From: Thiobacillus sp.
GTDB lineage: Bacteria; Pseudomonadota; Gammaproteobacteria; Burkholderiales; Thiobacillaceae
DNA length: 64,000 bases
Direction: 5' to 3'
Assembly: GCA_030692355.1 (NCBI GenBank)
Contig: JAUYCF010000043.1
Location: 1-64,000 of the forward strand
In this document: positions 46,087 to 64,000 of the stretch, piece by piece
Layout of the letters: each line of letters begins with the position of its first letter
Position numbering within the stretch: position 1 is the first letter of the stretch
The notes under the pieces: generated by a model
What the model was told of the DNA's origin: nothing
The model's database searches: none
What the model saw: only the letters and a program-made list of their open reading frames with translations
Made by a program: the position numbers and the translations under genes

Positions 46087-46647
46087 ATGATTCGCCGCAA
46101 CCCCAACGGAGACACCCCACGGGTGCATGAGACCGCTTTCGTCGATCCCACCGCCATCCTTTGCGGCAAGATCATTGTCGAAGCCAATGTATTCATCGGG
46201 CCGTATGCCGTGATCCGTGCCGACGAGGTCGACGGCGACGGCGACATGGAGCCCATCATCATCGGCGCCGACTCCAACATCCAGGACGGGGTGGTGATTC
46301 ACTGCATGGCAGGCAGCGGCGTCACCATAGGGCGCGGCAGTTCGATCGCCCACCGCTCCATCGTGCATGGCCCGTGCACGGTGGGCGACGGCGTATTCGT
46401 CGGCTTCAACTCGGTGCTGTTCAACTGTTCGGTCGGCGAAGGATCGGTCGTCCGCCACAACTCCGTGGTCGAAGGCTGCGACGTGCCGCCGGGCTTCTAC
46501 ATCCCATCCACCGCCAACATCCGATCCAACCGGGACCTGGAGACCATCGATCGTGTGACGCCCGATGTCAGCAGCTTCTCGGAAAGCGTGGCACAGGCCA
46601 ACCACGAACTGGTTAAAGGCTACAAGCAGATGCGCAACGAGTTCTGA
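46087..46647 (+). CDS. Gamma-class carbonic anhydrase, copy 1 (CcmM/CamH-like)
   Basis: Predicted to interconvert CO2 and bicarbonate. The 186-residue left-handed beta-helix protein has all three zinc ligands of the gamma class: H72 in NIQDGVVIH, and H89 and H94 in AHRSIVHG. The continuation GFNSVLFNCSVGEGSVV and DVPPGFYIPS resembles the N-terminal domain of carboxysomal CcmM more than the general YrdA-type proteins. No signal peptide is present, so it acts in the cytoplasm. Its DNA is nearly identical over long stretches to copy 3 at 52414. It is followed by gene debris instead of a co-transcribed gene. Confidence 0.9.
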   Translation: MIRRNPNGDTPRVHETAFVDPTAILCGKIIVEANVFIGPYAVIRADEVDGDGDMEPIIIGADSNIQDGVVIHCMAGSGVTIGRGSSIAHRSIVHGPCTVGDGVFVGFNSVLFNCSVGEGSVVRHNSVVEGCDVPPGFYIPSTANIRSNRDLETIDRVTPDVSSFSESVAQANHELVKGYKQMRNEF

Positions 46648-46674
46648 CGGGCTGAAATCCACCCGGACGGGCAC

Positions 46675-46905
46675 TCAGAAGAAACTGACTTTGACCGTCG
46701 TTCCCTGTTGCTCGCTGCTTTCCAGCCGCACCTGCCAGCCGTAGCGGTCGCAGATACGCTTGACCAGGGGAGAGGCCGATGCCGGCGCCTTCGCTCGCCA
46801 TGTCGCGGAAGTGGCGATGAAGACCTGGTCGATAGCGTAGCCAGTTACTTTCGCCCGTAATTGCTCACGACCACGGTGCCGGCGCCGCCAGGATTTCCAC
46901 CAGCC
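46675..46905 (-). pseudogene. Decayed 3' fragment of a histidine kinase gene
   Basis: Read on the minus strand, the segment matches the last 60 or so codons of the kinase at 42500-43759: the AIDQ region, GAGIGL, a CDRYGWQVRLES stretch and EQQGTTV before a TGA. One base is missing before the DMAS-equivalent and one C is extra after GIGL, and an in-frame stop sits further upstream. It is therefore a remnant of a paralogous kinase. Confidence 0.8.
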
Positions 46906-46920
46906 GGCATCGGCCGACAG

Positions 46921-46978
46921 GAGTTCCGGCGACGAGGCCGTGGCCTACTACCCCCGCATTCAAGGCGCATTTAAATGG
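46921..46978 (+). pseudogene. Fragment of the sulfatase 3' end
   Basis: The bases GACGAGGCCGTGGCCTACTA followed by a CCGCATTCAAGGC-like stretch repeat the end of the sulfatase gene near 45700-45738, with a short deletion. Together with the adjacent kinase fragment this fills the gap between copy 1 of the carbonic anhydrase and the first sulP. The rest of that 475-base gap (46980-47122) holds only candidate operators. Confidence 0.7.
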
Positions 46979-47056
46979 ACACGTGACGATGATCTGATTT
47001 TCCGGGCCGCTTTGGTTTTGTAGTCACAGACCACTTAATCTTCTCTTACCCCTCGC

Positions 47057-47112
47057 TTAACCCTGGGTTAACACCCTCATCGCTACGATCCGATCAATAT
47101 CTTTAATCGGAT
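47057..47112. promoter_or_regulatory. Two inverted repeats ahead of the first sulP
   Basis: TTAACCCTGGGTTAA at 47057-47071 is a palindrome with 7-base arms and fits the T-N11-A box of LysR-type regulators such as CbbR. A second inverted repeat, ATCCGAT at 47088-47094 and ATCGGAT at 47106-47112, lies just before the start codon at 47123. Both are operator candidates and neither is proven. Confidence 0.45.
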
Positions 47113-47122
47113 TTTTCCCGCG

Positions 47123-48949
47123 ATGCTTACTCCTCTTGCCCGTTTCGGCGTTCCTCCCCTCCGTCTCGACTGGCCGCGCCTGCTACCGTTTCTGCTCTGG
47201 CGCAATCGCGTCAACAAGCAGAGTCTGCGCGACGACCTGATGGCCGGCCTGACCGGGGCGCTGGTGGCGCTGCCGCAGGGGGTGGCGTTTGCCACCATCG
47301 CCGGCATGCCGCCGGAATACGGGCTGTATGCGGGGATGATCCCGGCCATCATCGCGGCGTTGTTCGGTTCTTCCTGGCATCTGGTGTCGGGGCCGACCAC
47401 GGCGGCCTCGATCGTGCTGTTCTCGGTGCTGTCGCCGCACGCCGAGCCGGGCACGGCGCAGTACGTGAGCCTGGCGCTGACGCTGACGTTTCTGGTCGGG
47501 CTGATCCAACTGGTGATGGGGCTGGCGCGCATGGGCACGCTGGTCAACTTCATCTCGCATTCGGTGGTGACCGGGTTCACCGCCGGCGCGGCGATCCTCA
47601 TCGCCACCAACCAGGTGAAGCATTTCTTCGGCCTGGAGATTGCGCGCGGGGCGTCGTTCAGCGACACCTGGAGCACCCTGTTCAGCCAGTTCGACCAGGT
47701 GCAGCCGGGCGTGATGGCGGTGGCCATGTTGACGCTGGCGCTGGGCATCGCAGTGAAGCAGTTTCTGCCAAAGTGGCCCTACATGATCGTGGCGATGCTG
47801 GGCGGGTCGGCCGCGGCGGCCGCGCTAAGCTATTGGCAGGGCCTGCAGATGGCCACGGTGGGCGCGCTGCCGGCAAGTCTGCCGCCGCTGTCGGCGCCGG
47901 CGCTGGACGCCGAGAGCATCCGCGCGGTGGCGTCCGGCGTGGTGGCGGTGACGCTCTTGGCGCTGACCGAGGCGGTGTCGATCGCGCGCGCACTGGCGGC
48001 GCGCTCCGGCCAGAACGTCGACGGCAACCAGGAATTCATCGGCCAGGGCATGTCGAACCTCGCCGGCGCGTTCTTCTCGGGTTATGTCGCCACCGGCTCG
48101 TTCAACCGCAGCGGCGTCAACTACGCCGCCGGGGCCAAGACGCCGCTGGCGGCAATGATGGCGGGCTTCTTCCTGCTGCTGGTGGTGCTGCTGGTGGCGC
48201 CGTGGGCGCGTTTCCTGCCCAACGCCGCCATGGCCGGCATCCTGTTCCTGGTGGCCTGGGGTCTGATCGACTTCAAGGAAATCATCCATACGGTGAAGAC
48301 CAACCGCTCCGAACTGGCCATCATGGCCGCCACCTTCGCCGCCACGCTGTTCCTGACGCTGGAAGAGGCCATCATCATCGGTGTGCTGATGTCGCTGTCG
48401 CTGTATCTGGCACGTACCTCCAAGCCGCAGGTGCGCGAGCGCGCGCCCAACCCGCACAGCAGGAAGCGCAAGTTCACCGACGCCGACCACGCGCCGCAGT
48501 GCCCGCAACTGCGCTTCGTGCGCATCGACGGCTCGCTGTTCTTCGGCGCCACCGCGCACGTGCGTGAAAAGCTGGCCGCCCAGGACCAGGCCAAGCCCGA
48601 GCAGAAACACGTGGCGATCATTGCGCACGGCATCAACTTCATCGACATGGCCGGCGCCGAGGCGCTCGCCGACGAGGCACGGCGACGTCGCGCGGCGGGC
48701 GGCGGGCTTTACCTCATGGGCGTCAAGGACACGGTGCAGGAACAGCTGGCCGAAAGCGGCGCCCTGAAAACGATCGGCGGCGCCAACCTGTTCGATTCCA
48801 AGACCGAGGCCATCGCCGAAATCTACCGCCGCCTCGACCGCGACGTCTGCCGCAATTGCAGTGCGCACATTTTCCGCGAATGCGCACCCGTGCGCAGCGA
48901 ACCGTCCGCCTCGCCACAGCCCCTTGTCCACGCTGGAGCCCACTCATGA
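47123..48949 (+). CDS. SulP family anion transporter with STAS domain, copy 1
   Basis: A 608-residue SLC26/SulP transporter, likely importing bicarbonate or sulfate. Membrane helices span about 35-430, with the SulP signature region GLYAGMIPAIIAALFGSSWHL and the second-half motif ATGSFNRSGVNYAAGAKT. The cytoplasmic STAS domain covers about 455-560. The extreme C terminus is unusual: CRNCSAHIFREC at about 576-587 has three cysteines and might bind metal. It lacks the coiled-coil insert of copies 2 and 3, so it belongs to a different SulP branch. It is coupled by ATGA to the UspA-like gene. Bicarbonate as substrate is inferred from the carbonic anhydrase neighbours. Confidence 0.9.
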   Translation: MLTPLARFGVPPLRLDWPRLLPFLLWRNRVNKQSLRDDLMAGLTGALVALPQGVAFATIAGMPPEYGLYAGMIPAIIAALFGSSWHLVSGPTTAASIVLFSVLSPHAEPGTAQYVSLALTLTFLVGLIQLVMGLARMGTLVNFISHSVVTGFTAGAAILIATNQVKHFFGLEIARGASFSDTWSTLFSQFDQVQPGVMAVAMLTLALGIAVKQFLPKWPYMIVAMLGGSAAAAALSYWQGLQMATVGALPASLPPLSAPALDAESIRAVASGVVAVTLLALTEAVSIARALAARSGQNVDGNQEFIGQGMSNLAGAFFSGYVATGSFNRSGVNYAAGAKTPLAAMMAGFFLLLVVLLVAPWARFLPNAAMAGILFLVAWGLIDFKEIIHTVKTNRSELAIMAATFAATLFLTLEEAIIIGVLMSLSLYLARTSKPQVRERAPNPHSRKRKFTDADHAPQCPQLRFVRIDGSLFFGATAHVREKLAAQDQAKPEQKHVAIIAHGINFIDMAGAEALADEARRRRAAGGGLYLMGVKDTVQEQLAESGALKTIGGANLFDSKTEAIAEIYRRLDRDVCRNCSAHIFRECAPVRSEPSASPQPLVHAGAHS

Positions 48950-49410
48950 AAACCCGTCAACGCATCCTGATCCCCTTCACGCATGGCCATAGCGGTTCGG
49001 CCCTGCTTCGCCGCGCCGGCGAGATCGCCGCCTCACAAGAGGTCGAGCTTCTGGTGGTGAGCGTGCTCGACACCCGCTCCAGTTTCGATTCGGACGGCCC
49101 CGCCGGCTCGCTGCCCGGCGAGCGTGCCGCCCGCCTCGCGCCGCCCGAGCAGAAACGGCTTGAGCACGACCTGAAGCGGCACGGCTTGAATCAGGCGAAT
49201 GCCACGGTGATCTGGGGCGAGCCGCGTAGCACCCTGGCAGCCCTGATCCGCAGCTGGTGCCCCGATCTGGTCTTGTGCGACGGACGGACGCGCCGCCTGC
49301 TGCCGGCGCGCTCCGACCGCGAAGGCCCGACGCTGATGACGATCGGGCGCGACGGCGCTTTCGCGCGTCTGGCCGGGTTGTTCTTTCCGCACGCGCAGGA
49401 GCATGCCTGA
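48946..49410 (+). CDS. UspA-like universal stress domain protein
   Basis: A 154-residue single-domain protein with a Usp-type start (RQRILIPFTHGHSGSALLRRAGEIA), the middle strand ATVIWGEPRSTLAALIRSWCPDLVL and the end LMTIGRDG. The ATP-binding loop G-2x-G-9x-G(S/T) is not clearly present, so it may bind AMP/ATP weakly or not at all. Starts inside the sulP stop (ATGA), so it is made with the transporter and may regulate it. A second small protein of the same kind precedes sulP copy 3. Confidence 0.75.
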   Translation: MKTRQRILIPFTHGHSGSALLRRAGEIAASQEVELLVVSVLDTRSSFDSDGPAGSLPGERAARLAPPEQKRLEHDLKRHGLNQANATVIWGEPRSTLAALIRSWCPDLVLCDGRTRRLLPARSDREGPTLMTIGRDGAFARLAGLFFPHAQEHA

Positions 49411-49501
49411 CCGCTCCGTGCGCCCGCGCGCCGGTTGATCGGAGGGCGCACCAGGCCGGCGGCCACCTGTTTTTTCATCCCGCAACCACAAGGAATACAC
49501 C

Positions 49502-50062
49502 ATGATTCGCCGCAACCCGCGAGGCGACCTGCCGGTCGTCCACGAGACCGCGTTTGTCGATCCCACCGCCATCCTCTGTGGCCACATCATCATTGGCGAG
49601 AACGTCTTCATCGGCCCCTACGCGGTGATACGCGCGGACGAGGTCGATGACGCCGGCAACATGGAGCCGATCGTCATTGGCGCGCACTCGAACATCCAGG
49701 ACGGCGTGGTCATCCACTCCAAGGCCGGCGGGCGGGTCGAAATCGGCGAATACACGTCGATCGCCCACCGCTCGATCGTGCACGGCCCCTGCAAGGTGGG
49801 AAACCGCGTGTTCATCGGCTTCAATTCGGTGCTGTTCAACTGCGTGGTGGGCGAGGGATCGGTGGTGCGCCACAACTCGGTGGTCGAAGGCTGCAGCGTG
49901 CCCGACGGCTTCTACATTCCCTCCACCTGCAACATCCACTCGGACGAGGAACTGGCCCGCATCGAACCCGTCACCCCCGACGTCACCGGATTCTCCGAAA
50001 GCGTGGCGCAGGCCAACCACGAGCTGGTCAGGGGCTACAAACGCATCCGCAATGAGTTTTAA
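49502..50062 (+). CDS. Gamma-class carbonic anhydrase, copy 2 (CcmM/CamH-like)
   Basis: A 186-residue protein equal in length to copy 1, with zinc ligands H72, H89 and H94 conserved. It differs more at the DNA level and in residues such as IGEYTS and DEELARIEPV, so it is an older paralogue. AAGGA lies nine bases before the ATG. It is the third gene of the sulP-usp-carbonic anhydrase set and ends at a strong terminator, which makes a direct functional link between transporter and enzyme plausible. Confidence 0.92.
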   Translation: MIRRNPRGDLPVVHETAFVDPTAILCGHIIIGENVFIGPYAVIRADEVDDAGNMEPIVIGAHSNIQDGVVIHSKAGGRVEIGEYTSIAHRSIVHGPCKVGNRVFIGFNSVLFNCVVGEGSVVRHNSVVEGCSVPDGFYIPSTCNIHSDEELARIEPVTPDVTGFSESVAQANHELVRGYKRIRNEF

Positions 50063-50065
50063 CCC

Positions 50066-50097: not shown

Positions 50098-50113
50098 TGG
50101 GCAAAGCTCGCTG

Positions 50114-52246
50114 TCAGGCCGGCTGCGGCTTGCTAACCATGCAGAACAGGTCATCCTTGCCATCCTCGCCCAGCCATTCGTAAATGGCCGTCAGCGCCTG
50201 GTCCTCGTTGGCGAAAATGTATCCCTGGCCAATTTTGTCAAACAGTCCGGTGTTGCGCATCACGTCCAGCACCTGCTTCTTGAGGCCGGAGAACACCAGC
50301 GTGATGCCGCTTTCACGCAGGCGTTCATGCAGGTGCATGATGACTTCCTCGCCGGTGGCATCCAGGTTATTGATGCCATCACCCACCACCAGCACATATT
50401 TGGCCTTGGGTTTGCCCGCGACGGCGCCGAGGATGGTGTCCTCGAAATAGGCGACGTTGGCGAAGTACAGCTCGCCGTCGAAGCGCATGGCGACGACATG
50501 CTCGCTGGTGGGCAGATCCGGGTTCACCTTGACGTCGCGCAGGGTGCCGTCGGCGTAGCGTCCGAGCTGGGCGACGCGCGGCTTCATGGTGCGGTATAGG
50601 AACAGCGCCAGTGCCAGCGCCGCGCCGATCAGGATGCCCTTGTCCAGATGCGGGGCCGCGATGAGCGTGACGAAGAAGGTGGTGATTGCCACCACGCCGT
50701 CCATCTTGCTGGCCTTCCAGGCGTGCTTGATGGCGCCGGGGGTGAGCAGGCCCGCCACCGCCAGCAGGATGATGACGCCCAGGGTTGCCTTCGGCAGGTG
50801 ATAGAGAAAGGGCGTCAGGAACAGCAGCGTGACCGCCACGAACAGGCCGTTGAACACCATGCCGAAGCCGGTTTTCGCGCCCGCCTGAAGGTTGATCACC
50901 GAGCCGGTGAACGAACCGGTCGCCGGGTAGGCCTGGAAGAACGAGCCCCCCATGTTGGCGATGCCCTGGCCGATCAGCTCCTGGTTGGGGTCGAGGCGCT
51001 GCTTGGTTTTCGCCGCCAGCGCCTTGGCCATGGAAATGCTTTCCATGAAGGCGACCAGCGCGATGATCAGCGCCGCGGCAAACAGCTGCATGAAGGCGTC
51101 GAGGGACAGCGCGGGGATGCGGAAGGACGGCAATCCGGCCGGGATGTTGCCGACGACGTCGCCACCGCCGGTCAGGTTCATCACTTCGCCGTCGACTTTC
51201 TTGATGTGCCACTGGTGGCCGTCGGTTTTCACGCCGTCAGGAACGCCGCCTTTCAGATAGAGCGTGGCCGCCTGGTCCGGGGGGGTATCGGCGCGTTCAA
51301 AGCTCAGCTTGCGCATATATTCCAGGCGTTCCTTGTTCTGCTGTTCGAAACCGAATGCCTCCAGATTCAGCAGGTCGATCTTGTAGTTGAGATCCGCCGC
51401 GGCACGTGCGTCACGCGCTTTTTCCAGCGTGCGGAGCTCCGCTGCCTTCGCCGTGACATCCGCCTTGATTGCGTCGATGCGAAGCTGCGCCTGAGAATAT
51501 TTCACGACCAGTTCGCGCACCACGGGGTCGGCAATCGTATCCGGCGCACTGGTGGCCTTGTGCGCGAAACCAGTCGCATAGCTGACCAGCGTGGTGATCA
51601 CCACGGCAATCAGCACGCTGGGTTTGGACAAGGCCGGGATTTTCTTCAGCCCCAGCATCAGTACCAGCGCAAAAACCGACATGGCCAGCGTGGGCCAATG
51701 GGTGAGCGGCAGATAGACGGACATTCCCCAGATGTCAGCCAGGAAGGAGTCGCTGCGCCCCTTGGGGATGCCCAGCAACATGTCGAGCTGCGACAGCGCG
51801 ATGATGATGGCCGCTGCGTTCATGAAGCCCAGAATCACCGGGTGCGACACGAAATTGACAATAGTGCCCAGCTTGAGCACGCCGAGGCTGAGCTGGATGA
51901 TGCCGACCATCAGGGTGAGCAACAGCGCGAGGCCGATGTAATCCTCGGAAAGCGGAATCGCCAGCGGTGCCAGCGCGGCGGCCGTCATCAGCGAAACAAT
52001 CGCAACCGGCCCCGTCGCCAGCTGCCGGGAAGACCCCCACAACGCCCCGAGAATCGCGGGGATGAACGCCGTATACAGCCCGAAATACACCGGCAGCCCC
52101 GCCAGTTGCGCATACGCCATCGCTTTCGGCACCAGCACCAGCGCGCCGGTAATGCCGGCCATCACGTCGGCGCGCAGGAATACTGAATTGATGGGAAACC
52201 AGGCCAGAAAGGGGAAAAAACGCACAAGCCATTTGTTGTCGTACAT
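50114..52246 (-). CDS. SulP family anion transporter with coiled-coil insert, copy 2
   Basis: A 710-residue SulP protein. The first membrane half covers about 25-228. An insert of about 130 residues (about 230-360) follows, rich in Lys, Glu, Ala and Leu and predicted as a coiled coil (KADVTAKAAELRTLEKARDA). The second membrane half begins after the VVGNIPAGLP motif and runs to about 560, and a STAS domain ends the protein (TLVFSGLKKQVLDVM). By topology the insert joins the two seven-helix halves and probably lies in the periplasm. Copy 3 has the same design. A GTTGC-N5-GCAAC palindrome lies 25 bases upstream. Likely substrate bicarbonate; sulfate is possible. Confidence 0.9.
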   Translation of the reverse strand: MYDNKWLVRFFPFLAWFPINSVFLRADVMAGITGALVLVPKAMAYAQLAGLPVYFGLYTAFIPAILGALWGSSRQLATGPVAIVSLMTAAALAPLAIPLSEDYIGLALLLTLMVGIIQLSLGVLKLGTIVNFVSHPVILGFMNAAAIIIALSQLDMLLGIPKGRSDSFLADIWGMSVYLPLTHWPTLAMSVFALVLMLGLKKIPALSKPSVLIAVVITTLVSYATGFAHKATSAPDTIADPVVRELVVKYSQAQLRIDAIKADVTAKAAELRTLEKARDARAAADLNYKIDLLNLEAFGFEQQNKERLEYMRKLSFERADTPPDQAATLYLKGGVPDGVKTDGHQWHIKKVDGEVMNLTGGGDVVGNIPAGLPSFRIPALSLDAFMQLFAAALIIALVAFMESISMAKALAAKTKQRLDPNQELIGQGIANMGGSFFQAYPATGSFTGSVINLQAGAKTGFGMVFNGLFVAVTLLFLTPFLYHLPKATLGVIILLAVAGLLTPGAIKHAWKASKMDGVVAITTFFVTLIAAPHLDKGILIGAALALALFLYRTMKPRVAQLGRYADGTLRDVKVNPDLPTSEHVVAMRFDGELYFANVAYFEDTILGAVAGKPKAKYVLVVGDGINNLDATGEEVIMHLHERLRESGITLVFSGLKKQVLDVMRNTGLFDKIGQGYIFANEDQALTAIYEWLGEDGKDDLFCMVSKPQPA

Positions 52247-52270: not shown

Positions 52271-52285
52271 GTTGCTTACCGCAAC
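52271..52285. promoter_or_regulatory. GTTGC-N5-GCAAC palindrome upstream of sulP copy 2
   Basis: GTTGCTTACCGCAAC. The same pattern, with different centre, occurs at 57048-57062 ahead of the sigma-54 promoter and nearly so at 56926-56940. It is a candidate binding site for the NtrC-family regulator encoded nearby and lies in the divergent sulP/carbonic anhydrase copy 3 gap. Confidence 0.55.
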
Positions 52286-52413: not shown

Positions 52414-52975
52414 ATGATCCGCCGCAACCCCGACGGAGACACCCCACGGGTGCATGAGACCGCTTTCGTCGATCCCACCGCCATCCTTTGCGGCAAGATC
52501 ATTGTCGAAGCCAACGTATTCATCGGGCCGTACGCCGTGATCCGTGCCGACGAGGTCAACGGCGAGAGCGAGATGGAGCCCATCGTCATCGGCGCCGATT
52601 CCAACATCCAGGACGGGGTGGTGATTCACTGCAAGTCTGGCGGCGGCGTCACCATCGGGTGCGGCAGCTCGATCGCGCACCGCTCCATCGTGCATGGCCC
52701 GTGTGTGGTCGGCGACCATGTCTTCGTCGGCTTCAATTCAGTGCTGTTCAACTGCTCGGTCGGCGACGGCTCGGTGGTGCGCCACAACTCGGTGATCGAG
52801 GGCTGCGACGTGCCCCCGGGTTTCTACATCCCCTCCACCGCCAACATCCGGTCCAACCAGGACCTGGAGACCATCGAGCGCGTGACGCCCGATAATCAGC
52901 AGCTTCTCGGAAAGCGTGGCGCAGGCCAACCACGAGCTGGTGAAGGGTTACAAGCGGATGCGCAACGAGTTTTGA
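52414..52975 (+). CDS. Gamma-class carbonic anhydrase, copy 3, frameshifted near the end
   Basis: The first 160 codons match copy 1 almost base for base, including zinc ligands H72, H89 and H94. At 52891-52900 the sequence GATAATCAGC replaces the GATGTCAGC of copy 1, adding one base. The expected tail (SFSESVAQANHELVKGY, then RNEF) is still present in the shifted frame and ends at TGA 52973-52975, eight bases before a terminator. In the unshifted frame translation runs on to 53085 through that terminator. The enzyme core may still fold, with an altered tail. A sequencing error cannot be excluded. Confidence 0.8.
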
Positions 52976-52982
52976 CGGATGG

Positions 52983-53018
52983 GCAGCGCCCTATAGATTG
53001 CCCCATGGCGCTGCTTTT
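52983..53018 (+). terminator. Terminator after carbonic anhydrase copy 3
   Basis: GCAGCGCC at 52983-52990 pairs with GGCGCTGC at 53007-53014, followed by four T residues. It directly follows the ancestral stop codon of copy 3, supporting that stop as the original gene end. Confidence 0.8.
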
Positions 53019-53098
53019 ACGCACTGATATGAAAAACCGGCCGCCCGGATCTGGCAGTCCAGCATCCCCAATCGCGACGGCCTGAGTCCTGAGCGTCG

Positions 53099-54067
53099 CT
53101 ACCAGTCGGCGCGGAATTGCAGGCCCCATACCGGCACCGCGCTGCGCGGGTAACCCGACGGGCTCCCGGAAGCGTGATCCATCCCGTCGGCAAGTAACGG
53201 GGTTTGCATGCCGATGGGCTGCCACCGCAACATCGTTTCCACCCCCAGCCAGCGGTCAGTTTGCGCACTGATCACGCCAAGGGGATCGGTGACGAACAGA
53301 AGGGTCTTGTCCGACCAGTCGAGCTTGCCGGGTTTGGCGCGGATGCGTGCCCGCAACGGCGTAAACAGGTATTCGCCGACGAGGAAGCCCACCACCGGCG
53401 TCACCACCAGATCCTGCGCCGAAACGGGCTCGGCCAGGGCTTCCGCGCCGTACTCGAAGAGCGTCGACAACAACGCCGAATACCAGAATGCCTGGGCCCG
53501 GTCCAAACCGCGCTCCCGCGCCTGAATGTAATACGCGCCGCCCCAGTAAGGGTGCGTGATGTAATTGACCCACCAGGCGTCCCCGTCCCACACCGGCTTG
53601 CTGACATTGTTGCGCCACTTGCTGAAGCTGTAGTTCCGCTTTTGCTCGCGATCCCAGCCCGAGATGCTTTCGGGGGCGACATACAGCACGGCAATGGCGG
53701 CAAACTGGTAACCGAGGAAATAGCTCACATCACGACGTACGCCCCGCCAGTCCGGCTGATCGACCGAAGCCCCCCGCCAGTTGTATCCGGGTGATTCCCC
53801 GGCAGCCGCGTCATCCAGCGCCGAGCCTTGGAGAAGGAAAAACGCATTCCCTGCCTGTGGCGAGGATTGGCGCCAGACGACATCGGACATCACAGCAGAA
53901 TCGGCCGCGATGGCCGGAAGGGGGTGGAACCCACCCCCAGCGATGCCGATAGCCATGCAGCAGCATGCGCAGGCCAAGCGAAAAAAATCCGGGCGCTGCA
54001 AGCACGCCCGTCGATGCCGGCGATCGCGCAGTTTATTCACACCGAACGGCAAGGCATGGTCAGTCAT
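53099..54067 (-). CDS. DUF3943 domain envelope protein
   Basis: A 322-residue protein matching the DUF3943 pattern: WWVNYITHPYWGGAYYIQAR, then FWYSALLSTLFEYGAEAL and PVSAQDLVVTPVVG. A hydrophobic segment near residues 29-50 after a basic stretch may be a signal sequence, and the C-terminal part looks beta-rich, so an outer-membrane or periplasmic location is likely. The function is unknown. It starts six bases after the NtrC-family regulator stop, so it is the third gene of the kinase-regulator operon. Confidence 0.78.
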   Translation of the reverse strand: MTDHALPFGVNKLRDRRHRRACLQRPDFFRLACACCCMAIGIAGGGFHPLPAIAADSAVMSDVVWRQSSPQAGNAFFLLQGSALDDAAAGESPGYNWRGASVDQPDWRGVRRDVSYFLGYQFAAIAVLYVAPESISGWDREQKRNYSFSKWRNNVSKPVWDGDAWWVNYITHPYWGGAYYIQARERGLDRAQAFWYSALLSTLFEYGAEALAEPVSAQDLVVTPVVGFLVGEYLFTPLRARIRAKPGKLDWSDKTLLFVTDPLGVISAQTDRWLGVETMLRWQPIGMQTPLLADGMDHASGSPSGYPRSAVPVWGLQFRADW

Positions 54068-55432: not shown

Positions 55433-56904
<1,472 letters not shown>

Positions 56905-56925
56905 GGCGCCAGCATGCCTGCGATT

Positions 56926-57062
56926 GTTGCTGTTTGCAATATGTGCCTGACGATTGCAACACAATGGGGCAGATATCACTTAACCCATATTTAACAAAGC
57001 GATAATGACCGCCATGAACAAACGGCCGGCGTGAAAAAAATAAGAAAGTTGCGTAACGCAAC
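56926..57062. promoter_or_regulatory. Palindromes in the kinase/usp divergent gap
   Basis: GTTGCTGTTTGCAAT (56926-56940) and GTTGCGTAACGCAAC (57048-57062) share TTGC-N5-GCAA. The second is centred about 110 bases before the expected sigma-54 transcription start, a normal enhancer distance. Between them TTAACCCATATTTAA (56980-56994) resembles the palindrome before sulP copy 1 and fits T-N11-A. Confidence 0.55.
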
Positions 57063-57139: not shown

Positions 57140-57155
57140 TGGCACGCTTGCTGCA
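57140..57155 (+). promoter_or_regulatory. Sigma-54 promoter of the usp-sulP-hyf operon
   Basis: TGGCAC-GCTTG-CTGCA matches the -24/-12 consensus TGGCAC-N5-TTGCA with one mismatch and correct GG-to-GC spacing. It lies about 38 bases before the usp ATG, downstream of the enhancer-like palindrome and next to the genes for a sigma-54 activator. Confidence 0.8.
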
Positions 57156-57192: not shown

Positions 57193-57588
57193 ATGACCCA
57201 CCCCGGCAAACAACGAACCGTACTGCTCGCCGTCCGCGAAGGGCATGTGGATCCGCGTCTGCTGACCTCGGCGCTGTCGCTTTGCCGCCGTCTCGAGGCC
57301 GACCTGGAGATTCAGGTCATCGCCGCTGGCGAAACGCCGCCGGCCGAGATGGCCGATTTTCTCGATTCGCTGCGCGAGGCGGGCCTGCCCTTCAGCCTGG
57401 ACGTAAAACCCAGCCTGCGCCGGCGCGACCTGGTCGACTACGCCAATGCCCGCGAGCACATCGCGGCGGTGGTGATCGACTCGCGCGAAGGCTGGGAAGC
57501 GCTGGCCCAGGACCGCAGCAGCGACCCGTGGAAGCATCTCGCCTGCCCGCTGGTGACTGCGGCGTCGCACGACAAGAAACCCGCCTGA
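57193..57588 (+). CDS. Small UspA-like protein, first gene of the operon
   Basis: A 131-residue protein with a Usp-like opening strand (QRTVLLAVREGHVDPRLLTSA), a helix with Cys and Glu, and the pattern LVDYANAREHIAAVVIDSRE. The nucleotide loop is not complete. It resembles the UspA-like protein beside sulP copy 1 in size and position. ATG 57193 follows the promoter and AGGAAG; the frame is open upstream to 57031 but that part contains promoter elements. The next gene starts 35 bases later. Confidence 0.7.
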   Translation: MTHPGKQRTVLLAVREGHVDPRLLTSALSLCRRLEADLEIQVIAAGETPPAEMADFLDSLREAGLPFSLDVKPSLRRRDLVDYANAREHIAAVVIDSREGWEALAQDRSSDPWKHLACPLVTAASHDKKPA

Positions 57589-57623: not shown

Positions 57624-59744
57624 ATGCCCGCCTTCCTGATCAAATTCCTGCCCTTCCTGCGCTGGTTCCCCATGAAGGGGGACATGCTGAAGGCCGACTT
57701 CATGGCGGGCCTGACCGTGGCCCTGGTGCTGATTCCGCAGTCGATGGCCTACGCGCAACTGGCCGGGCTGCCGGCGTACTACGGGCTGTACGCGGCCTTC
57801 CTGCCGGTGGCGGTGGCGGCCCTGTGGGGCAGCTCGAGCCAGCTCGGCACCGGCCCGGTGGCGGTGGTGTCGCTGCTGACGGCCTCGTCGCTGGCGGTAC
57901 TGGCGGCGCCGGGCTCCGACCAGTTCATCGCGCTGGCCATCATGCTGTCGCTGGTGGTGGGCGTCATTCAGCTGCTGCTCGGCGTGTTCAAGCTGGGGGT
58001 GATCGTCAACTTCCTGTCGCATCCGGTGATCGTCGGCTTCACCAACGCGGCGGCCATCATCATCGGCCTGTCGCAGGTGTCCAAGCTGTTCGGCGTGCCG
58101 ATGGGGCGCAGCGAGCATTTCATCAACGACATCGTCGGCGTGTTGAAGCAGATCGGCGACACCCACCTGCCGACGCTGGCGATGGGCGTGCTGGCCATCG
58201 CGCTGATGTGGGGCATCAGGAAATACGCCCCCAAGCTGCCCGGGGTGCTGATCGCGGTGGTGGTGACGACGCTGCTGTCATGGTCGATCGGCTTCGAACG
58301 CAACGCCAACGGCTCGCTCGATCAGATCGCCGACCCGCAGCTGCAGGCCGTGGTGCAGCAGAACATGGCTGCGGCGAGGCAGGTGGACGACCTGAATACG
58401 CAGATCGCCGGCAAATCGGCCGCGTTGAAAGCCGCCGAGAAAGCCGGCGAAAACAACGTCGGCGCCGTGCAAATGGAGGCCGAACTGGCACTGTTGCGGA
58501 TCGCGCTGCGCGATGCGGAAGCGGCTTTCGCCAAGGAAAAGGCGGCACTGCGCTATCTGCAGGTGGTGCGCAGCACGGACGCGGACGGCGCAACCCTGGC
58601 GATTTATTCGGCCGAGCGGGCGCCGCAGGGCGTGACGCTGGACGAGACCCGCTACCGCCTGCGCAAGCTCAACGCCGAAGGCTTCAAGCTGGTGGGCGGC
58701 GGCGAGGTGGTGGGCGCCATCCCGGAAGGCCTGCCCAGCATCCAGATGCCCAGCCTCAGCCTGGATGCGCTGGGTTCGCTGCTGTCCGCCGCCCTGGTGA
58801 TTTCGCTGGTGGGCTTCATGGAAGCCATCTCCATCGCCAAGGCCGTTGCGGCCAGAACCAAGGAGCGCATCGACCCCAACCAGGAACTGATCGGCCAGGG
58901 CCTTGCCAACGTGGTCGGCAGCTTCTCCCAGGCATTCCCGGTCTCGGGTTCGTTCTCGCGCACGGCCGTCAACATGAATGCCGGCGCCAAAACCGGCATG
59001 AGCTCGGTGATCACCGCGCTGATCGTGCTGGTCGCGCTGCTCTTCCTCACCCCGCTGCTGTACCACCTGCCGCAGGCCGTGCTGGCCGCCATCATCATCA
59101 TGGCGGTGATCGGCCTGGTGAACTTCAAGGCGGTGAAGCATGCCTGGCAGGCCAGCCGCCACGACGGCATCGCCGCGGGCGTCACCTTCGTTTCCACGCT
59201 GGCCTTCGCCCCGCATCTGGACAAGGGCATCATGGTCGGTGCGGGCCTCGCGCTCGGCCTCTACCTGTATCGCACCATGTCGCCGCGCGTCGCCATTCTC
59301 GGCCGCTACAAGGACGGCACGCTGCGCGACCTCAAGGTGAACCCGGATCTGCCCACCAGCAAGCACGTGGTGGCGATCCGCTTCGACGGCTCGCTGTACT
59401 TCGCCAACGTCCCCTACTTCGAGGACGCAATGCTGGAGGCCATTTCCAAGAATCCCGAAGCCAAATACGTCCTGGTGGTGGGCGATGCGATCAACGAGCT
59501 GGACGCGTCGGGCGAGGAGGTCATTCATCACCTGGTCGAACGCCTGCACGCCGCGGGGATCACCCTGGTATTCAGCGGCCTGAAAAAACAGGTGCTGGAT
59601 GTGATGCGCGCCACCGGGCTGTTCGAGGCGATCGGGCAGGACAAGCTGTTCGCCACGGTGGACCAGGCGATTGCCGCGATCTACGAGCAACTGGGCGAAG
59701 AAGCGGCAGACGACCTGTTCTGTGCGATCAAGCCGGCTGCATGA
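57624..59744 (+). CDS. SulP family anion transporter with coiled-coil insert, copy 3
   Basis: A 706-residue SulP protein closely related to copy 2. Membrane halves are at about 25-222 and 365-560, with an insert of about 135 residues (about 225-358) predicted as a coiled coil (VDDLNTQIAGKSAALKAAEK), and a C-terminal STAS domain. The motif GAIPEGLPSIQMPSLSLDALG marks the start of the second half. No good ribosome site precedes ATG 57624. It is controlled by the sigma-54 promoter and followed after 73 bases, with no terminator, by hyfB. Likely bicarbonate importer, by context. Confidence 0.9.
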   Translation: MPAFLIKFLPFLRWFPMKGDMLKADFMAGLTVALVLIPQSMAYAQLAGLPAYYGLYAAFLPVAVAALWGSSSQLGTGPVAVVSLLTASSLAVLAAPGSDQFIALAIMLSLVVGVIQLLLGVFKLGVIVNFLSHPVIVGFTNAAAIIIGLSQVSKLFGVPMGRSEHFINDIVGVLKQIGDTHLPTLAMGVLAIALMWGIRKYAPKLPGVLIAVVVTTLLSWSIGFERNANGSLDQIADPQLQAVVQQNMAAARQVDDLNTQIAGKSAALKAAEKAGENNVGAVQMEAELALLRIALRDAEAAFAKEKAALRYLQVVRSTDADGATLAIYSAERAPQGVTLDETRYRLRKLNAEGFKLVGGGEVVGAIPEGLPSIQMPSLSLDALGSLLSAALVISLVGFMEAISIAKAVAARTKERIDPNQELIGQGLANVVGSFSQAFPVSGSFSRTAVNMNAGAKTGMSSVITALIVLVALLFLTPLLYHLPQAVLAAIIIMAVIGLVNFKAVKHAWQASRHDGIAAGVTFVSTLAFAPHLDKGIMVGAGLALGLYLYRTMSPRVAILGRYKDGTLRDLKVNPDLPTSKHVVAIRFDGSLYFANVPYFEDAMLEAISKNPEAKYVLVVGDAINELDASGEEVIHHLVERLHAAGITLVFSGLKKQVLDVMRATGLFEAIGQDKLFATVDQAIAAIYEQLGEEAADDLFCAIKPAA

Positions 59745-59817: not shown

Positions 59818-61836
59818 ATGATGGAAACATTTTCCCTGCTTCCCCTCGAACCGGTCCAATGGGCGTGGGGCGTCGTGCTGTTCTGGCTGGCACTGGGCTT
59901 CGCGGCCCTGCTGCTGCAGCGAGTGCCGCAGCTGCTGAGCCGGCTGGTGTTTCCGCTGGGTGCGCTGGGCGCGCTCTTCATCGCCGGCGTCGGCGTTGCC
60001 GGCCTGCTGCTGCCGGCCTCCACCATCGTCCTGCCGATCGGGTTGCCCGACCTGCCTTTCCACCTGCGGCTGGACGCCCTGTCCGCCTTCTTCATGGTGC
60101 TGCTGGGCGGCGCGGCGTTCGGCATCACGGTGTATGCGTCCGGCTATTTCAAGAGCATGGCCGGCGGCCCGCTGGCGCTGCTGGCGCTGTGGTACCACCT
60201 GTTCCTGGGCGGCATGGTCACCGTGCTGCTGGCCAACGACGCCTATGCCTTCATGGTGGCGTGGGAAGTGATGGCGCTGTCGTCCTACTTCCTCGTCACC
60301 ACCGACCACAAGGTTCCCGAAATCCGCCGTGCCGGCTTTCTCTATCTGTTGATCGCGCACGTCGGCGCGATCTCGCTGCTGCTCACCTTCGGGGTGCTGC
60401 AGGGCGGCCAGGGCGACTACACCTTCGACACCATGCGACTGGCCGAGATGACGCCGTTCTGGGCCTCGGTCGCCTACCTGCTGGCGCTGTTCGGTTTCGG
60501 CGCCAAGGCGGGCATGGTGCCCCTGCACGTGTGGCTGCCTGAAGCCCACCCGGCCGCGCCATCGCCGGTTTCCGCGCTGATGTCGGGGGTGATGCTGAAG
60601 ACCGCCATCTATGGCCTGCTGCGGGTGACCTTCGATCTGCTCAACATCCAGATCGGCTGGTGGGGGACGCTGGCGCTGGCGCTCGGTTTGATTACTGCGC
60701 TGTACGGCGTGATCTTCGCCGCCGTGCAGTCGGACATGAAGCGCCTGCTGGCCTGGTCGTCGATCGAAAACATCGGCATCCTGCTCGCCGCCTTCGGCCT
60801 CACACTGATCTTCTACACCGACGGCAAGGGCGCGCTGGCCGCGCTGACGCTCACCGCGCTGCTCTACCATGCGCTCAACCACGCCTTCTTCAAGGGCCTC
60901 TTGTTCGTCGGCACCGGTTCGGTTCTGCATGCCACCGGCGTGCGCCACATGGGCCACCTGGGCGGGCTGATGCGATTCATGCCGTGGACCGCCTGGCTGA
61001 CCCTGATCGGCGCGCTGGCGATCGCCGGCCTGCCGCCCTTGAACGGTTTCGTCTCGGAATGGCTGCTGCTGCAGGCCTTTCTGCAGACGCCCGGCCTGAC
61101 CCAGCCCTACCTCAACATGGTGATCCCGGTGGCCGCCGCCACCCTCGCGCTGGCTGCGGCGCTGGCCGCCTATGTGATGGTGAAGTTCTTCGGCGTGGTC
61201 TTTCTTGGCCAGCCGCGCGACCCGGCGCTGCACGAGGCGCACGAGGCCGGCTGGCCGGAGCGCCTGGGGATGCTGTGGCTGGCGGCGGGCTGCGTGCTGC
61301 TGGGCCTGTTTCCCGCCCAGGTCATCGGCTGGCTGGCGCCGGTGGTGTCCCTGCTGACCGACCAGACGCTGGTGAACGACGGCAACTGGCTGATGCTGGC
61401 GCCCATCTCGGCGGAGCGCGCCAGCTACGCGCCGCTGATCTTCTTCGCCGTGGTGGCGGCGGTGCTGCTGCTCACCTTCGTCTGGGTGCGCCGCGTCTAT
61501 CACGGCCGGGTGCGCCGCAGCGACCCGTGGGATTGCGGCTATCCGGAACAGGACGCGCGCATGCAGGACAGCGCCGAAGGCTTCGGCCAGCCGATCCGGC
61601 AGATTTTCGAGGTGTTCATGAAGGTGGAGCGGGAAACCCCCGATCCCTTCTCGCGTTCCCCGCACTACCACGGCGCGTCGCTGGACAAGGCCTGGTTCAT
61701 TTTCTACGTACCCATCGCGCGCGTGACGAACTGGCTGTCGGAGCAGGCCGGGCGGCTGCAGCACGGCCGCATCCAGTGGTACCTGATCTACAGCTTCGCC
61801 ACCCTGATCTTCCTTCTGGTCTTTACAACACGATGA
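59818..61836 (+). CDS. hyfB: Hydrogenase-4 subunit B-like proton-translocating protein
   Basis: A 672-residue NuoL/MrpA-superfamily membrane protein with about 16 helices. Residues thought to carry protons are present: E150 in AWEVMALSSY, K230 in FGAKAGMVPLHVWLPEAHPA and K261 in SGVMLKTAIYG. The HyfB-type C terminus DPWDCGYPEQDARMQ sets it apart from NuoL and MrpA. DabB of the known CO2-trapping pair belongs to the same superfamily, which makes a role in energised inorganic carbon uptake conceivable. It overlaps hyfC by ATGA. Confidence 0.9.
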   Translation: MMETFSLLPLEPVQWAWGVVLFWLALGFAALLLQRVPQLLSRLVFPLGALGALFIAGVGVAGLLLPASTIVLPIGLPDLPFHLRLDALSAFFMVLLGGAAFGITVYASGYFKSMAGGPLALLALWYHLFLGGMVTVLLANDAYAFMVAWEVMALSSYFLVTTDHKVPEIRRAGFLYLLIAHVGAISLLLTFGVLQGGQGDYTFDTMRLAEMTPFWASVAYLLALFGFGAKAGMVPLHVWLPEAHPAAPSPVSALMSGVMLKTAIYGLLRVTFDLLNIQIGWWGTLALALGLITALYGVIFAAVQSDMKRLLAWSSIENIGILLAAFGLTLIFYTDGKGALAALTLTALLYHALNHAFFKGLLFVGTGSVLHATGVRHMGHLGGLMRFMPWTAWLTLIGALAIAGLPPLNGFVSEWLLLQAFLQTPGLTQPYLNMVIPVAAATLALAAALAAYVMVKFFGVVFLGQPRDPALHEAHEAGWPERLGMLWLAAGCVLLGLFPAQVIGWLAPVVSLLTDQTLVNDGNWLMLAPISAERASYAPLIFFAVVAAVLLLTFVWVRRVYHGRVRRSDPWDCGYPEQDARMQDSAEGFGQPIRQIFEVFMKVERETPDPFSRSPHYHGASLDKAWFIFYVPIARVTNWLSEQAGRLQHGRIQWYLIYSFATLIFLLVFTTR

Positions 61837-62777
61837 GTACCGGCATCCTTCTGCAACTCGCCCAGACCCTGCTGGCGATCCTGCTGGCACCCCTGCTGAT
61901 GGGCTGGGTCAACCAGTGCCGCGCCTGGCTGCAGGGCCGCAGCGCGCCCCCCATCACCCAGCCCTACCGCACGCTGAAGAAACTGTTCCACAAGGACGCG
62001 GTGATCGCGCACAACGCCAGCCCGCTGTTCCGCTTCGCGCCCTACATGATCTTTGCCTGCATGGCGCTGGCGGCAGGCATCGTGCCGACCATCGTGAACG
62101 ACCTGCCGTTCTCGCCCGCCGCCGACGTTATCGCGCTGGTCGGCATCTTCGCCCTGGCGCGGGTGTTCCTGGCGCTGGCCGCGATGGACATCGGCACCTC
62201 GTTCGGCACCCTCGGCGCGCGCCGCGAGATGCTGGTGTCCTTCCTCGCCGAGCCGGCGCTGCTGATGGTGTTCTTCACCGCCAGCCTGATCTCGCAGTCG
62301 ACCGAGTTGCCGGTGATCGTCGAGACCCTGGCGCACCAGGAATTCGCCATCTACCCCAGCCTGGCGTTTGCGGCGGTGGCGTTCTGGATGATCTCGGTGG
62401 CGGAGAATGCGCGCATCCCGGTGGACAACCCGAGCACCCACCTCGAACTGACGATGATCCACGAGGCCATGATCCTGGAGTACTCGGCCCGCCACCTGGC
62501 GCTGATCGAGTGGGCGGTGGCGCTCAAGCTGTTCACCTATTCCGCGCTCGGCATCGCGCTGTTCCTGCCATGGGGCATTGCGGTGCAGGGCGATCTCGCG
62601 GCACTGCCGCTGGCGCTGGTGGCGATGGTCGCGAAACTTCTGCTCGGCGGTGCCGTGCTGGCCTTCATCGAAACGATTTCGGCCAAGGTGCGGCTGTTCC
62701 GCGCACCCGAGTTTCTCGGCACCGCATTTTTGCTGGCGGTGCTGGGCATGCTGATTCATTTCCTGCTGGAGGTTTGA
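61833..62777 (+). CDS. hyfC: Hydrogenase-4 subunit C-like membrane protein (NuoH family)
   Basis: A 314-residue, eight-helix protein of the NuoH/HyfC family. The conserved cytoplasmic loops PYRTLKKLFHKDAV and ENARIPVDNPSTHLELTMIH, with several acidic residues, normally bind the hydrophilic catalytic arm and guide protons. The frame is open far upstream, but ATG 61833 is coupled to the hyfB stop. Its presence implies that hydrophilic subunits exist, probably just beyond the window. Confidence 0.92.
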   Translation: MSTGILLQLAQTLLAILLAPLLMGWVNQCRAWLQGRSAPPITQPYRTLKKLFHKDAVIAHNASPLFRFAPYMIFACMALAAGIVPTIVNDLPFSPAADVIALVGIFALARVFLALAAMDIGTSFGTLGARREMLVSFLAEPALLMVFFTASLISQSTELPVIVETLAHQEFAIYPSLAFAAVAFWMISVAENARIPVDNPSTHLELTMIHEAMILEYSARHLALIEWAVALKLFTYSALGIALFLPWGIAVQGDLAALPLALVAMVAKLLLGGAVLAFIETISAKVRLFRAPEFLGTAFLLAVLGMLIHFLLEV

Positions 62778-62791
62778 CGTGATCGCAAGAT

Positions 62792-62841
62792 GTAGGGTGC
62801 GCCATGCGCACCATGTGAACGGTGCGCATGGCGCACCCTAC
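62792..62841. repeat. GTAGGGTGCGC palindromic repeat inside the hyf operon
   Basis: Arms at 62792-62812 and 62821-62841 are perfect complements with an 8-base loop. The hairpin lies between hyfC and hyfE. It lacks a T tract and may protect or separate mRNA segments. Same family as 8042-8126. Confidence 0.85.
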
Positions 62842-62852
62842 GGGAAATCATC

Positions 62853-63515
62853 ATGAGCCTGACCTACCACCTGCAGATCGTCAACCTGCTGGCCGCCCTG
62901 CTGCTGCTGATTTCCTTCGCCATGCTGTCGCAGCGCCGCATCGCCGGGCTGATCACGCTATTTGCCTGGCAGGGCGCGGCGCTGACGGCATCCACCGCGC
63001 TGGTGGCCTGGTCCACCGGCCAGCATCACCTGTATTACACGGCGGCGCTCACCCTGGTGCTCAAGGTGATCGCCATGCCCTGGTACTTCTTCCGCATCGT
63101 CAAAAAGCTCGACGTCGACCGCGACGTGGAACCGATGATCAACATCCCGACCACCATGCTGATCGGTATCGTGCTGGTGATCTTCGCCTTCAACCTGGCG
63201 CTGCCCATCTCGGAGCTGTCGGGCACGGTGACGCGCTCGACCCTGGGCATCGCCCTGGCCACCGTGCTGCTCGCCTTTTTGATGATGATCACGCGCAGCA
63301 AGGCGATCCCCCAGGTGATCGGCTTTCTGGCGATGGAGAACGGCCTGTTCTTCGCCGCCACCAGCGCCACCTACGGCATGCCGCTGGTGGTTGAACTGGG
63401 CGTGGCACTTGACGTGATGGTGGGCGTGTTCGTGCTCTCCATCTTCTTCTTCCAGATTCGCGAGACCTTCGATTCGCTGGATCTGAAGCACATGGAAAAA
63501 CTGAAAGAACGCTGA
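62853..63515 (+). CDS. hyfE: Hydrogenase-4 subunit E-like membrane protein
   Basis: A 220-residue protein with about seven helices. Its C-terminal part resembles NuoK/MrpC (TSATYGMPLVVELGVALDVMVGVFVLSIFFFQI), and an acidic residue in GFLAMENGLFFAATSA is typical. It ends with a charged tail (LKHMEKLKER). It begins 11 bases after the REP hairpin and is followed one base later by hyfF. Confidence 0.9.
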   Translation: MSLTYHLQIVNLLAALLLLISFAMLSQRRIAGLITLFAWQGAALTASTALVAWSTGQHHLYYTAALTLVLKVIAMPWYFFRIVKKLDVDRDVEPMINIPTTMLIGIVLVIFAFNLALPISELSGTVTRSTLGIALATVLLAFLMMITRSKAIPQVIGFLAMENGLFFAATSATYGMPLVVELGVALDVMVGVFVLSIFFFQIRETFDSLDLKHMEKLKER

Positions 63516-63516
63516 G

Positions 63517-64000
63517 ATGGAAATTTACTGGCTACTCGGCATTCCGCTGACCGGCGGCATCTTCCTGGCGCTGTGGGGCTGCCGGAAACATTCGCCGGAG
63601 ATCAACGCGCTGTTCAGCTTGCTGACGCTGCTGGCGGCCGCGCTGCTGACGCACCGCATCATCGAAAACGGCCCGATGACCGTCGGCGGCGGCTGGTTCT
63701 TCATCGACTCGTTCAACGTCTTCCTGGTCGCGCTGACCGCTTTCGTCGCCTTCACCACCGCCCTCTTCTCACGCCCCTACATGCGTATCGAGGCGGAGCA
63801 CGGCAAGCTCAACGACAAGCGGCTGCGCCTGTACCACAGCAGCTACCAGATCTTCATCGCCGCCATGCTGCTGGCACTGACCACCAACAACATGGGCATC
63901 CTGTGGGTGGCGATGGAAGCGGCGACGCTCGCCACCGTGCTGCTGGTGTCGCTGTACCGCACCCCGGCCTCGCTGGAAGCGGCGTGGAAGTATTTCATCC
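63517..64000 (+). CDS. hyfF: Hydrogenase-4 subunit F-like protein, cut by the window end
   Basis: The first 161 codons of a NuoL/M/N-type membrane protein: MEIYWLLGIPLTGGIFLALW, then GGGWFFIDSFNVFLVALTAF and NNMGILWVAMEAATLATVLLVSLY, the last containing the conserved glutamate of the first proton channel. HyfF is the normal neighbour of HyfE. The remaining two thirds lie outside the window. Confidence 0.88.
   Translation, partial: MEIYWLLGIPLTGGIFLALWGCRKHSPEINALFSLLTLLAAALLTHRIIENGPMTVGGGWFFIDSFNVFLVALTAFVAFTTALFSRPYMRIEAEHGKLNDKRLRLYHSSYQIFIAAMLLALTTNNMGILWVAMEAATLATVLLVSLYRTPASLEAAWKYFI

Follow-up and report, generated by a model that had tools for sequence, protein, structure and literature searches.

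What does a Thiobacillus genome gain from keeping three SulP transporter genes, three gamma-carbonic anhydrase (gamma-CA) genes and a Hyf-type membrane complex side by side? The island that raises this question begins at position 46087 of the window, by which we mean the whole stretch of DNA analysed (64,000 nucleotides, positions 1-64,000 of contig JAUYCF010000043.1); all coordinates follow the numbering of that contig, including those of genes past 64,000. A sequence-only reading had placed here three SulP and three gamma-CA genes, a sigma-54 kinase-regulator pair and a usp-sulP-hyfBCEF run, all of which were recovered in position by profile searches, and had proposed that together they form an energised system for the uptake of inorganic carbon. 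We find that the island very probably does have a role in inorganic carbon. The fuller statement, that it is the inorganic-carbon supply module of a CO2-fixation supercluster in which Hyf drives net accumulation, is one that, taken whole, we hold evenly poised between right and wrong.

The evidence that bears most directly on the carbon role lies past the window edge, which cuts an operon: hyfG (65040-66590) and hyfI (66678-67211) continue on the plus strand beyond 64,000. They are followed on the minus strand by a gene for a CsoSCA-like carbonic anhydrase of 351 amino acids (67476-68531), recognised by its match to the Pfam family CsoSCA_cat; by cbbO (68671-71013), named from its VWA domain and its place; and by cbbL of form I type (72555-73976), with cbbQ and cbbS between cbbO and cbbL on the same strand. 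Beyond cbbR (74127-75143, plus strand) parA, a ferritin-like gene and two BMC shell genes occupy the minus strand up to 77.7 kb, where the contig ends (77,737). Because a RuBisCO operon and carboxysome shell genes adjoin it, the island is part of a carbon-fixation supercluster; and because a CsoSCA-like carbonic anhydrase, cbbOQSL, cbbR and shell genes follow on the contig, its inorganic-carbon role is well supported. A second RuBisCO locus of the same genome, with CbbQ and CbbO, lies on contig C67 and is of form II type, as judged from its 31% identity.

The same place behind cbbO was surveyed at 42 Thiobacillus cbbO loci, our own included, of which 35 had at least 4.5 kb downstream and seven were dropped as shorter. 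At 26 of the 35, CbbO is 84-100% identical (the threshold being at least 80%), and these loci are therefore taken to be of the same cbbLSQO operon type. The slots behind 24 of these 26, ours among them, hold SulP, carbonic anhydrase, Hyf, DabA or Mrp-like genes; two hold none. SulP is present in 22, gamma-CA in 17, Hyf in 12 and a CsoSCA-like carbonic anhydrase in three, with DabA and an Mrp-like cluster in one each, and every one of the 12 Hyf slots also holds SulP or carbonic anhydrase. Together with the adjoining form I RuBisCO operon and shell genes, the agreement of 24 of 26 loci upholds the assignment of the island to inorganic carbon. At the remaining nine of the 35 loci CbbO diverges (55-59% identical) and CbbS was not found; they are not of the cbbLSQO type seen here, and their slots hold SulP in all nine cases, Mrp-like genes in two and DabA in one, with neither Hyf nor carbonic anhydrase in any. 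In nine loci (L046, L088, L217, L219, L220, L222, L223, L228 and L250; L and G numbers are our handles for loci and genomes) gamma-CA lies just 5' of hyfB with no recognised gene between, and in L045 (2136-2693) gamma-CA sits between cbbQ and cbbO within the RuBisCO operon.

The gamma-CA genes of the island all lie on the plus strand: gamma-CA1 (46087-46647), encoding a CcmM/Cam-like protein of 186 amino acids, gamma-CA2 (49502-50062) and gamma-CA3 (52414-53085). All three were recognised by Hexapep profile, with a structure alignment to Cam for gamma-CA1 and a ligand alignment for gamma-CA2. Residues H72, H89, H94, R44, D46, E47, Q66, N172 and Y179 are invariant in all ten sequences of an alignment that excludes gamma-CA3. 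We take their roles from Cam, among them three zinc histidines and the catalytic Arg, Asp and Gln; zinc ligands and catalytic residues of a gamma-carbonic anhydrase are in place. The gamma-CA3 gene has a frameshift close to its C-terminus, past which the usual tail is encoded in another frame. The CsoSCA-like protein exceeds the Pfam cut-off for CsoSCA_cat (28.7 against 21.5 bits) in a partial match to positions 74-150 of 236, and at 39.5 bits falls below the NCBIfam CsoSCA cut-off of 241; its structure model (predicted local distance difference test, pLDDT, 46.6) is too poor for a judgement of the fold.

The genome, 3.27 Mb in size, has four SulP genes, three of them in the island: only one other PF00916 gene is present. 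SulP1 (47123-48949, plus strand, 608 amino acids), SulP2 (50114-52246, 710 amino acids, on the minus strand in correction to an earlier gene listing) and SulP3 (57624-59744, plus strand, 706 amino acids from this ATG) were all found by profile searches to combine PF00916 with STAS, as SulP/SLC26 proteins do. SulP1 is without insert; in SulP2 and SulP3 an insert of about 130 amino acids divides the two PF00916 halves, and no Pfam domain was found within it. A model of SulP3 (mean pLDDT 78) matches SLC26 structures and adopts the SLC26 fold, the insert forming a long helical hairpin with a few strands, presumably on the periplasmic side if SLC26 topology is followed. Thirty insert-bearing SulP sequences align, several of which adjoin form I or form II RuBisCO.

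Transporters of this family need not carry bicarbonate. PF00916 spans many anions, the nearest chains of solved structure belong to a plant sulfate transporter and to prestin, and Thiobacillus is known for sulfur oxidation; the SulP proteins might thus transport sulfate or some other anion that a sulfur oxidiser handles, with the carbonic anhydrase genes as unrelated neighbours. Against such an explanation, three SulP genes stand with three gamma-CA genes, and the two families recur in 22 and 17, respectively, of the 26 cbbLSQO slots, which makes it decidedly improbable. We favor import of bicarbonate by the SulP proteins, a substrate suggested by their surroundings, with the gamma-CA and CsoSCA-like enzymes exchanging CO2 and bicarbonate in the cytoplasm, near RuBisCO. 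There is a precedent in SulP-CS of T. pelophila, which rescued Escherichia coli lacking carbonic anhydrase (excerpts of PMC12628692).

What Hyf contributes depends on what Hyf is. Its membrane subunits are encoded on the plus strand by hyfB (NuoL-like, 59818-61836; PF00361, and PRK06521 at 887 bits against a cut-off of 667), hyfC (NuoH-like, 61833-62777; PF00146), hyfE (NuoK-like, 62853-63515; PRK11492 at 91 bits, below the cut-off of 136, and without a Pfam match) and hyfF (NuoN/M-like, 63517-64968, crossing the window end at 64000; PF00361, and PRK06458 at 860 bits against 543). The best named match of HyfB is a Thiobacillus metagenome-assembled genome (MAG), at 98% identity; T. denitrificans RG and further Thiobacillus come next. 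Family models annotate such proteins as hydrogenase 4, and formate has been suggested for the Hyf of Acidithiobacillus (At.) ferrooxidans (excerpts of PMC7735108), both of which would suit a hydrogenase-4 or formate hydrogenlyase making or using H2 or formate. HyfG indeed aligns to formate hydrogenlyase subunit 5, as well as to NuoCD of complex I. Its first ligand motif, however, is RVSGDS in place of RVCGIC, and its last site is NLSYSG, so that the NiFe ligands of a group 4 hydrogenase are missing. The CxxC of the first NiFe site is present in none of 60 HyfG relatives, and at the last site 49 have NLSYSG, seven have close variants without cysteine and four are uncovered. Nor did we find a formate dehydrogenase among the genes scanned from 42.5 to 77.4 kb, a scan that left some small open reading frames outside. 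The cluster cysteines of HyfI are retained (CNGC, GDC and GCPP). A hyfBCEFGI set without NiFe ligands is characteristic of the Hyf-like non-hydrogenase complexes, a family whose name we take to be Ehr. Judged from its ligand sites Hyf is not a hydrogenase; that identity was rejected, and the production or use of H2 or formate is very improbable. Published excerpts are in keeping with this: the Hyf of At. ferrooxidans was classed as non-hydrogenase (PMC7735108), and the authors on Cupriavidus CH34 thought a role of Hyf in lithotrophic growth very unlikely (PMC2864759). In Variovorax PBL-E5 (L080:1091-8375) and a Rhodoferax MAG (L143:2600-9900) a second, more divergent Hyf-like cluster adjoins the first.

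From usp2 to hyfI the intergenic gaps are at most 87 bp, and usp2-sulP3-hyfBCEFGI looks like one operon. Usp2 (57193-57588, plus strand), is a small usp-like gene that matched no Pfam family in the profile search; in relatives it is again found 5' of SulP3 or of the kinase. About 38 bp 5' of it, pattern search and conservation point to a sigma-54-type promoter site, TGGCACGCTTGCTGCA (57140-57155, plus strand). Of 16 distinct upstream regions, 10 contain the site with at most two mismatches; the other six, all with divergent Usp2, lack it at that threshold, and one of these six (L087) nonetheless precedes sulP3-hyf. Some 77 bp upstream of the site lies a palindrome, GTTGC-N5-GCAAC (GTTGCGTAACGCAAC, 57048-57062), which is exact in seven of the ten regions and has one mismatch in three; when the ten are aligned, site and palindrome rise above a poorly conserved background. 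The pair is also found in Sulfuricella T08 and in two Thiobacillus genomes (G011 and G020) where a different SulP stands beside a related kinase-regulator pair. Genome-wide the exact palindrome occurs at six sites and the reversed control pattern at one. Two of the six are in the island: the one 5' of usp2-sulP3-hyf, and GTTGCTTACCGCAAC (52271-52285, by pattern search), a candidate regulator site between sulP2 and gamma-CA3.

The two proteins that may act on these sites are, by profile searches, an NtrC-type sigma-54 response regulator (54074-55435) and a HAMP histidine kinase (55429-56979), both encoded on the minus strand. This two-component system would turn on usp2-sulP3-hyf through the sigma-54 promoter, with the palindrome upstream as candidate enhancer, to which the adjoining regulator presumably binds. 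GTTGCTTACCGCAAC hints that sulP2 and gamma-CA3 may be controlled together.

In the reading that we favor, Hyf, complex-I-like and without a NiFe site, would be the part that drives net accumulation; it is plausible that Hyf energises carbon accumulation. Two routes can be envisaged. Hyf might couple electron transfer or proton flow to the hydration of CO2 by an attached carbonic anhydrase, in the manner of NDH-1MS and DAB. Alternatively, it might build an ion gradient that is spent by SulP, an ion-pump role suggested by the Mrp-like cluster of some relatives. The SulP substrate, the contact of carbonic anhydrase with Hyf, the direction of coupling and the binding of the regulator are points that we infer from the genes.

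The wider distribution of Hyf provides some information. In an even sample of 300 genomes across the order, HyfB was found in 75 (E 1e-130 or better, with at most three candidates scored per genome, so that some Hyf were possibly missed). A RuBisCO-like match occurred in 137 genomes, of which 113 were kept at E 1e-100 or better; the other 24 were excluded, being regarded as form IV-like or partial. RuBisCO is present in 55 of the 75 Hyf genomes against 58 of the 225 without Hyf (p = 3e-13); by family, of which there are about 50, the figures are 22 of 28 with Hyf and 7 of about 22 without (p = 0.001, rising to 0.002 if one family was undrawn). The sequence-only reading had named orthologues mainly in heterotrophs as an outcome that would refute its proposal, and these counts do not show that outcome. 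Among the 80 closest named Hyf loci, many of them on short contigs and with SulP counted within the fetched flank, 14 of the 15 loci with SulP belong to RuBisCO genomes, compared to 40 of the 65 others (p = 0.03); here three of 57 RuBisCO matches were set aside, one of which may be a piece of a true gene. The same partners accompany Hyf in Sulfuricella T08 (SulP-HyfBCEFGI-eCA, L099), a Rhodocyclaceae MAG (L147), Parasulfuritortus (L089) and a Gallionella MAG (L100), and in another arrangement, HyfBCEFGI-gammaCA-SulP, in Sulfuriferula multivorans (L120). The sulP3-hyf stretch is also matched by 93 plasmid records; in the three viewed (Variovorax, Burkholderia and Azospirillum) neither SulP nor carbonic anhydrase is annotated beside Hyf, in a gene table that is incomplete.

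A tie between Hyf and RuBisCO would also be expected if Hyf served reverse electron flow, the proton-motive force pushing electrons from quinol or cytochrome to ferredoxin or NAD(P)+ for the Calvin cycle. SulP and carbonic anhydrase would then be a separate carbon module, and Hyf would adjoin RuBisCO because both serve autotrophy. The association with RuBisCO is indeed genome-wide and reaches beyond the Hyf loci that adjoin SulP or carbonic anhydrase; the retained cluster cysteines of HyfI, and the place of HyfG in the complex-I and formate hydrogenlyase families, make electron transfer likely; and Thiobacillus, Gallionella and Sulfuricella are among the carriers, sulfur and iron oxidisers being organisms that require uphill electron transport. 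What this leaves unexplained is the presence of sulP3 in the same operon and of gamma-CA directly 5' of hyfB, and Hyf occurs without a RuBisCO match in Pseudogulbenkiania subflava (L125) and Aromatoleum tolulyticum (L118). We regard reverse electron flow as the main rival and a real possibility, if on the unlikely side.

Within the genus, Hyf can be set against DabA and the carboxysome in 56 Thiobacillus genomes, counts that are uncorrected for phylogeny and include some incomplete genomes. BMC matches are present in 38 and DabA (PF10070) in 23; in the genome under study (G000) no match to DabA was found, and the partner that defines DAB is thus missing. DabA occurs in 23 of the 38 carboxysome-bearing and in none of the 18 shell-less genomes (p = 6e-6), all 23 DabA genomes carrying shell genes. 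Hyf occurs in 10 of the 38 and in 10 of the 18 (p = 0.04), and among the 32 genomes at least 90% complete it is present in six of the seven that are shell-less (p = 0.006). From these counts, DAB tracks carboxysomes in the genus and Hyf needs none. No cbbO slot holds Hyf together with DabA or Mrp-like genes (0 of 35; with 12 and 5 of 35, such a mutual miss would arise by chance about once in ten). Strict replacement of DAB by Hyf is unsupported: both occur together in six of the 56 genomes, and their exclusivity is not significant (p = 0.26). The two can share one supercluster, given that in four genomes (G015, G060, G066 and G079) a single contig carries HyfB, cbbO, DabA and BMC genes in a stretch of about 35 kb.

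The frequency of Hyf in shell-less Thiobacillus (the six of seven above) lends itself to another account, namely that the island serves autotrophy in general and Hyf would mainly balance pH or ions, as the conversion of bicarbonate to CO2 consumes protons, rather than drive uptake. Behind cbbO in three Thiobacillus genomes (L067:13153-18920, L068:1167-1829, L242 and L243), a Na+/Ca2+ exchanger and an Mrp/Mbh-like antiporter cluster, the latter made up of PF00361 proteins with MbhD/E and MnhG domains, lie next to SulP, in one case with gamma-CA and in one behind the same cbbLSQO type; these too would fit a balancing role. We judge it improbable.

Several observations weigh against the statement that the island supplies carbon with Hyf as its driving force. 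Carboxysome shell genes are absent from 10 of the 20 Hyf genomes of the genus, and this counts because bicarbonate accumulated in the presence of a cytoplasmic carbonic anhydrase would leak. Hyf and DabA coexist in the six genomes noted above; bona fide RuBisCO is absent from 20 of the 75 Hyf genomes of the order; SulP was seen near Hyf in only 15 of the 80 named loci, many of them on short contigs; and recurrent neighbours of Hyf elsewhere include the housekeeping genes dnaE and metG, these being the identities of two neighbours of 1170 and 717 amino acids that had been suspected to be DabA-like. The solved relatives of SulP carry sulfate, chloride, phosphate or bicarbonate, and the substrate is not readable from sequence; in T. 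pelophila a SulP encoded elsewhere than at the carboxysome locus failed to rescue E. coli lacking carbonic anhydrase (PMC12628692, in excerpt). As to control, no sigma-54 site with at most two mismatches lies near the palindrome at 52271 or near several of the palindromes in other loci, and in the window as a whole the counts of sigma-54 sites and one-mismatch palindromes equal chance; because they do, the evidence for control is one of conservation and position, not number. Of the energised uptake system first proposed, then, the carbon island stands, and the energising by Hyf, with SulP seen near only 15 of 80 loci and 20 of 75 carriers without bona fide RuBisCO, is no more than plausible.

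A bolder version of the same idea can be formulated. HyfBCEFGI would be a third, independently recruited carbon pump derived from complex I, redox-active and descended from hydrogenases, that drives the hydration of CO2 by a docked gamma-CA or CsoSCA-like carbonic anhydrase; SulP would be co-transcribed, and the pump would serve above all those autotrophs whose form I RuBisCO is non-carboxysomal and in which DAB is lacking. In this full form we think it unlikely.

Other features of the locus can be mentioned briefly. Usp1 (48946-49410, plus strand), a universal stress protein with PF00582, starts within the end of sulP1. An extra gene inside the island (53099-54067, minus strand, by profile search), directly after the response-regulator gene, encodes a DUF3943 protein and is kept in two relatives (L040 and L083). 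In the gap before gamma-CA1, positions 45808-45973 (minus strand) match Group II intron D1-D4-3 at 64.7 bits; since the coding-score gene list has no gene in this gap, the match is probably an intron remnant. Type II secretion genes (secretin, T2SSE ATPase) lie near the window start (355-11086).

How, finally, does the island compare to known systems? Plant and algal complex I carries attached gamma-CA, and here, as far as genes alone can tell, a gamma-CA gene lies next to a complex-I-like membrane arm; CAG1 is among the gamma-CA structure matches. The cyanobacterial NDH-1MS is a complex-I-like machine thought to drive CO2 hydration. Hyf resembles it in presumed working only, and an NdhI/NuoI-type gene is absent from the six hyf genes. 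With DAB/DAC the island has two features in common: HyfB is a NuoL-like membrane subunit with the PF00361 domain of proton-conducting subunits, and within Thiobacillus the DabA-DabB loci, too, have RuBisCO and carboxysome genes close by. It differs in that this genome has no DabA match and so no DAB, that Hyf has six complex-I-like subunits, including homologues of NuoCD and NuoB, and that the carbonic anhydrase subunits of Hyf would be gamma-CA or CsoSCA-like. Excerpts of PMC13144422, in which NDH-1MS is also named, describe the DAB mechanism as vectorial carbonic anhydrase activity driven by the proton-motive force.

With BicA and the SulP-carbonic anhydrase pairs the island shares SulP proteins with STAS and an adjoining carbonic anhydrase gene. 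Against the BicA profile NF050096, however, SulP1, SulP2 and SulP3 score 176.4, 120.3 and 142.9 bits (cut-off 880), SulP2 and SulP3 carry an insert, and the carbonic anhydrases of the island are of the gamma and not the beta class. With SulP scores of 120-176 bits against 880, and no DabA match in the genome, the description of the system as distinct from DAB and BicA is sustained. In At. ferrooxidans can2, which lies beside sulP, declines as CO2 rises (PMC6458275, in excerpt), and SulP-carbonic anhydrase pairs and carbon genes adjoining RuBisCO were already known (PMC10880623 and PMC6458275). The hydrogenase-4-like HyfBCEFGI sets of Cupriavidus and Acidithiobacillus, the non-hydrogenase one of At. 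ferrooxidans included, have the same six gene names; the excerpts of PMC7735108 and PMC2864759 do not tie them to inorganic carbon, whereas here the set forms an apparent operon with SulP beside RuBisCO. In a literature covered largely as titles, abstracts and excerpts we found no link of Hyf to inorganic carbon uptake or sigma-54 control, and to that extent the partnership of Hyf with carbon genes and its sigma-54 control appear to be what is new. HyfBCEFGI-type complexes are common in the order and came without a tested function in that same literature; their tie to RuBisCO, SulP and carbonic anhydrase gives them a testable role, and the switching of the system can be approached directly by way of the conserved sigma-54 site and palindrome. 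If Hyf does drive accumulation, then it would join NDH-1MS and DAB as the third complex-I derivative by which CO2 is concentrated, and possibly one that is independent of the carboxysome.

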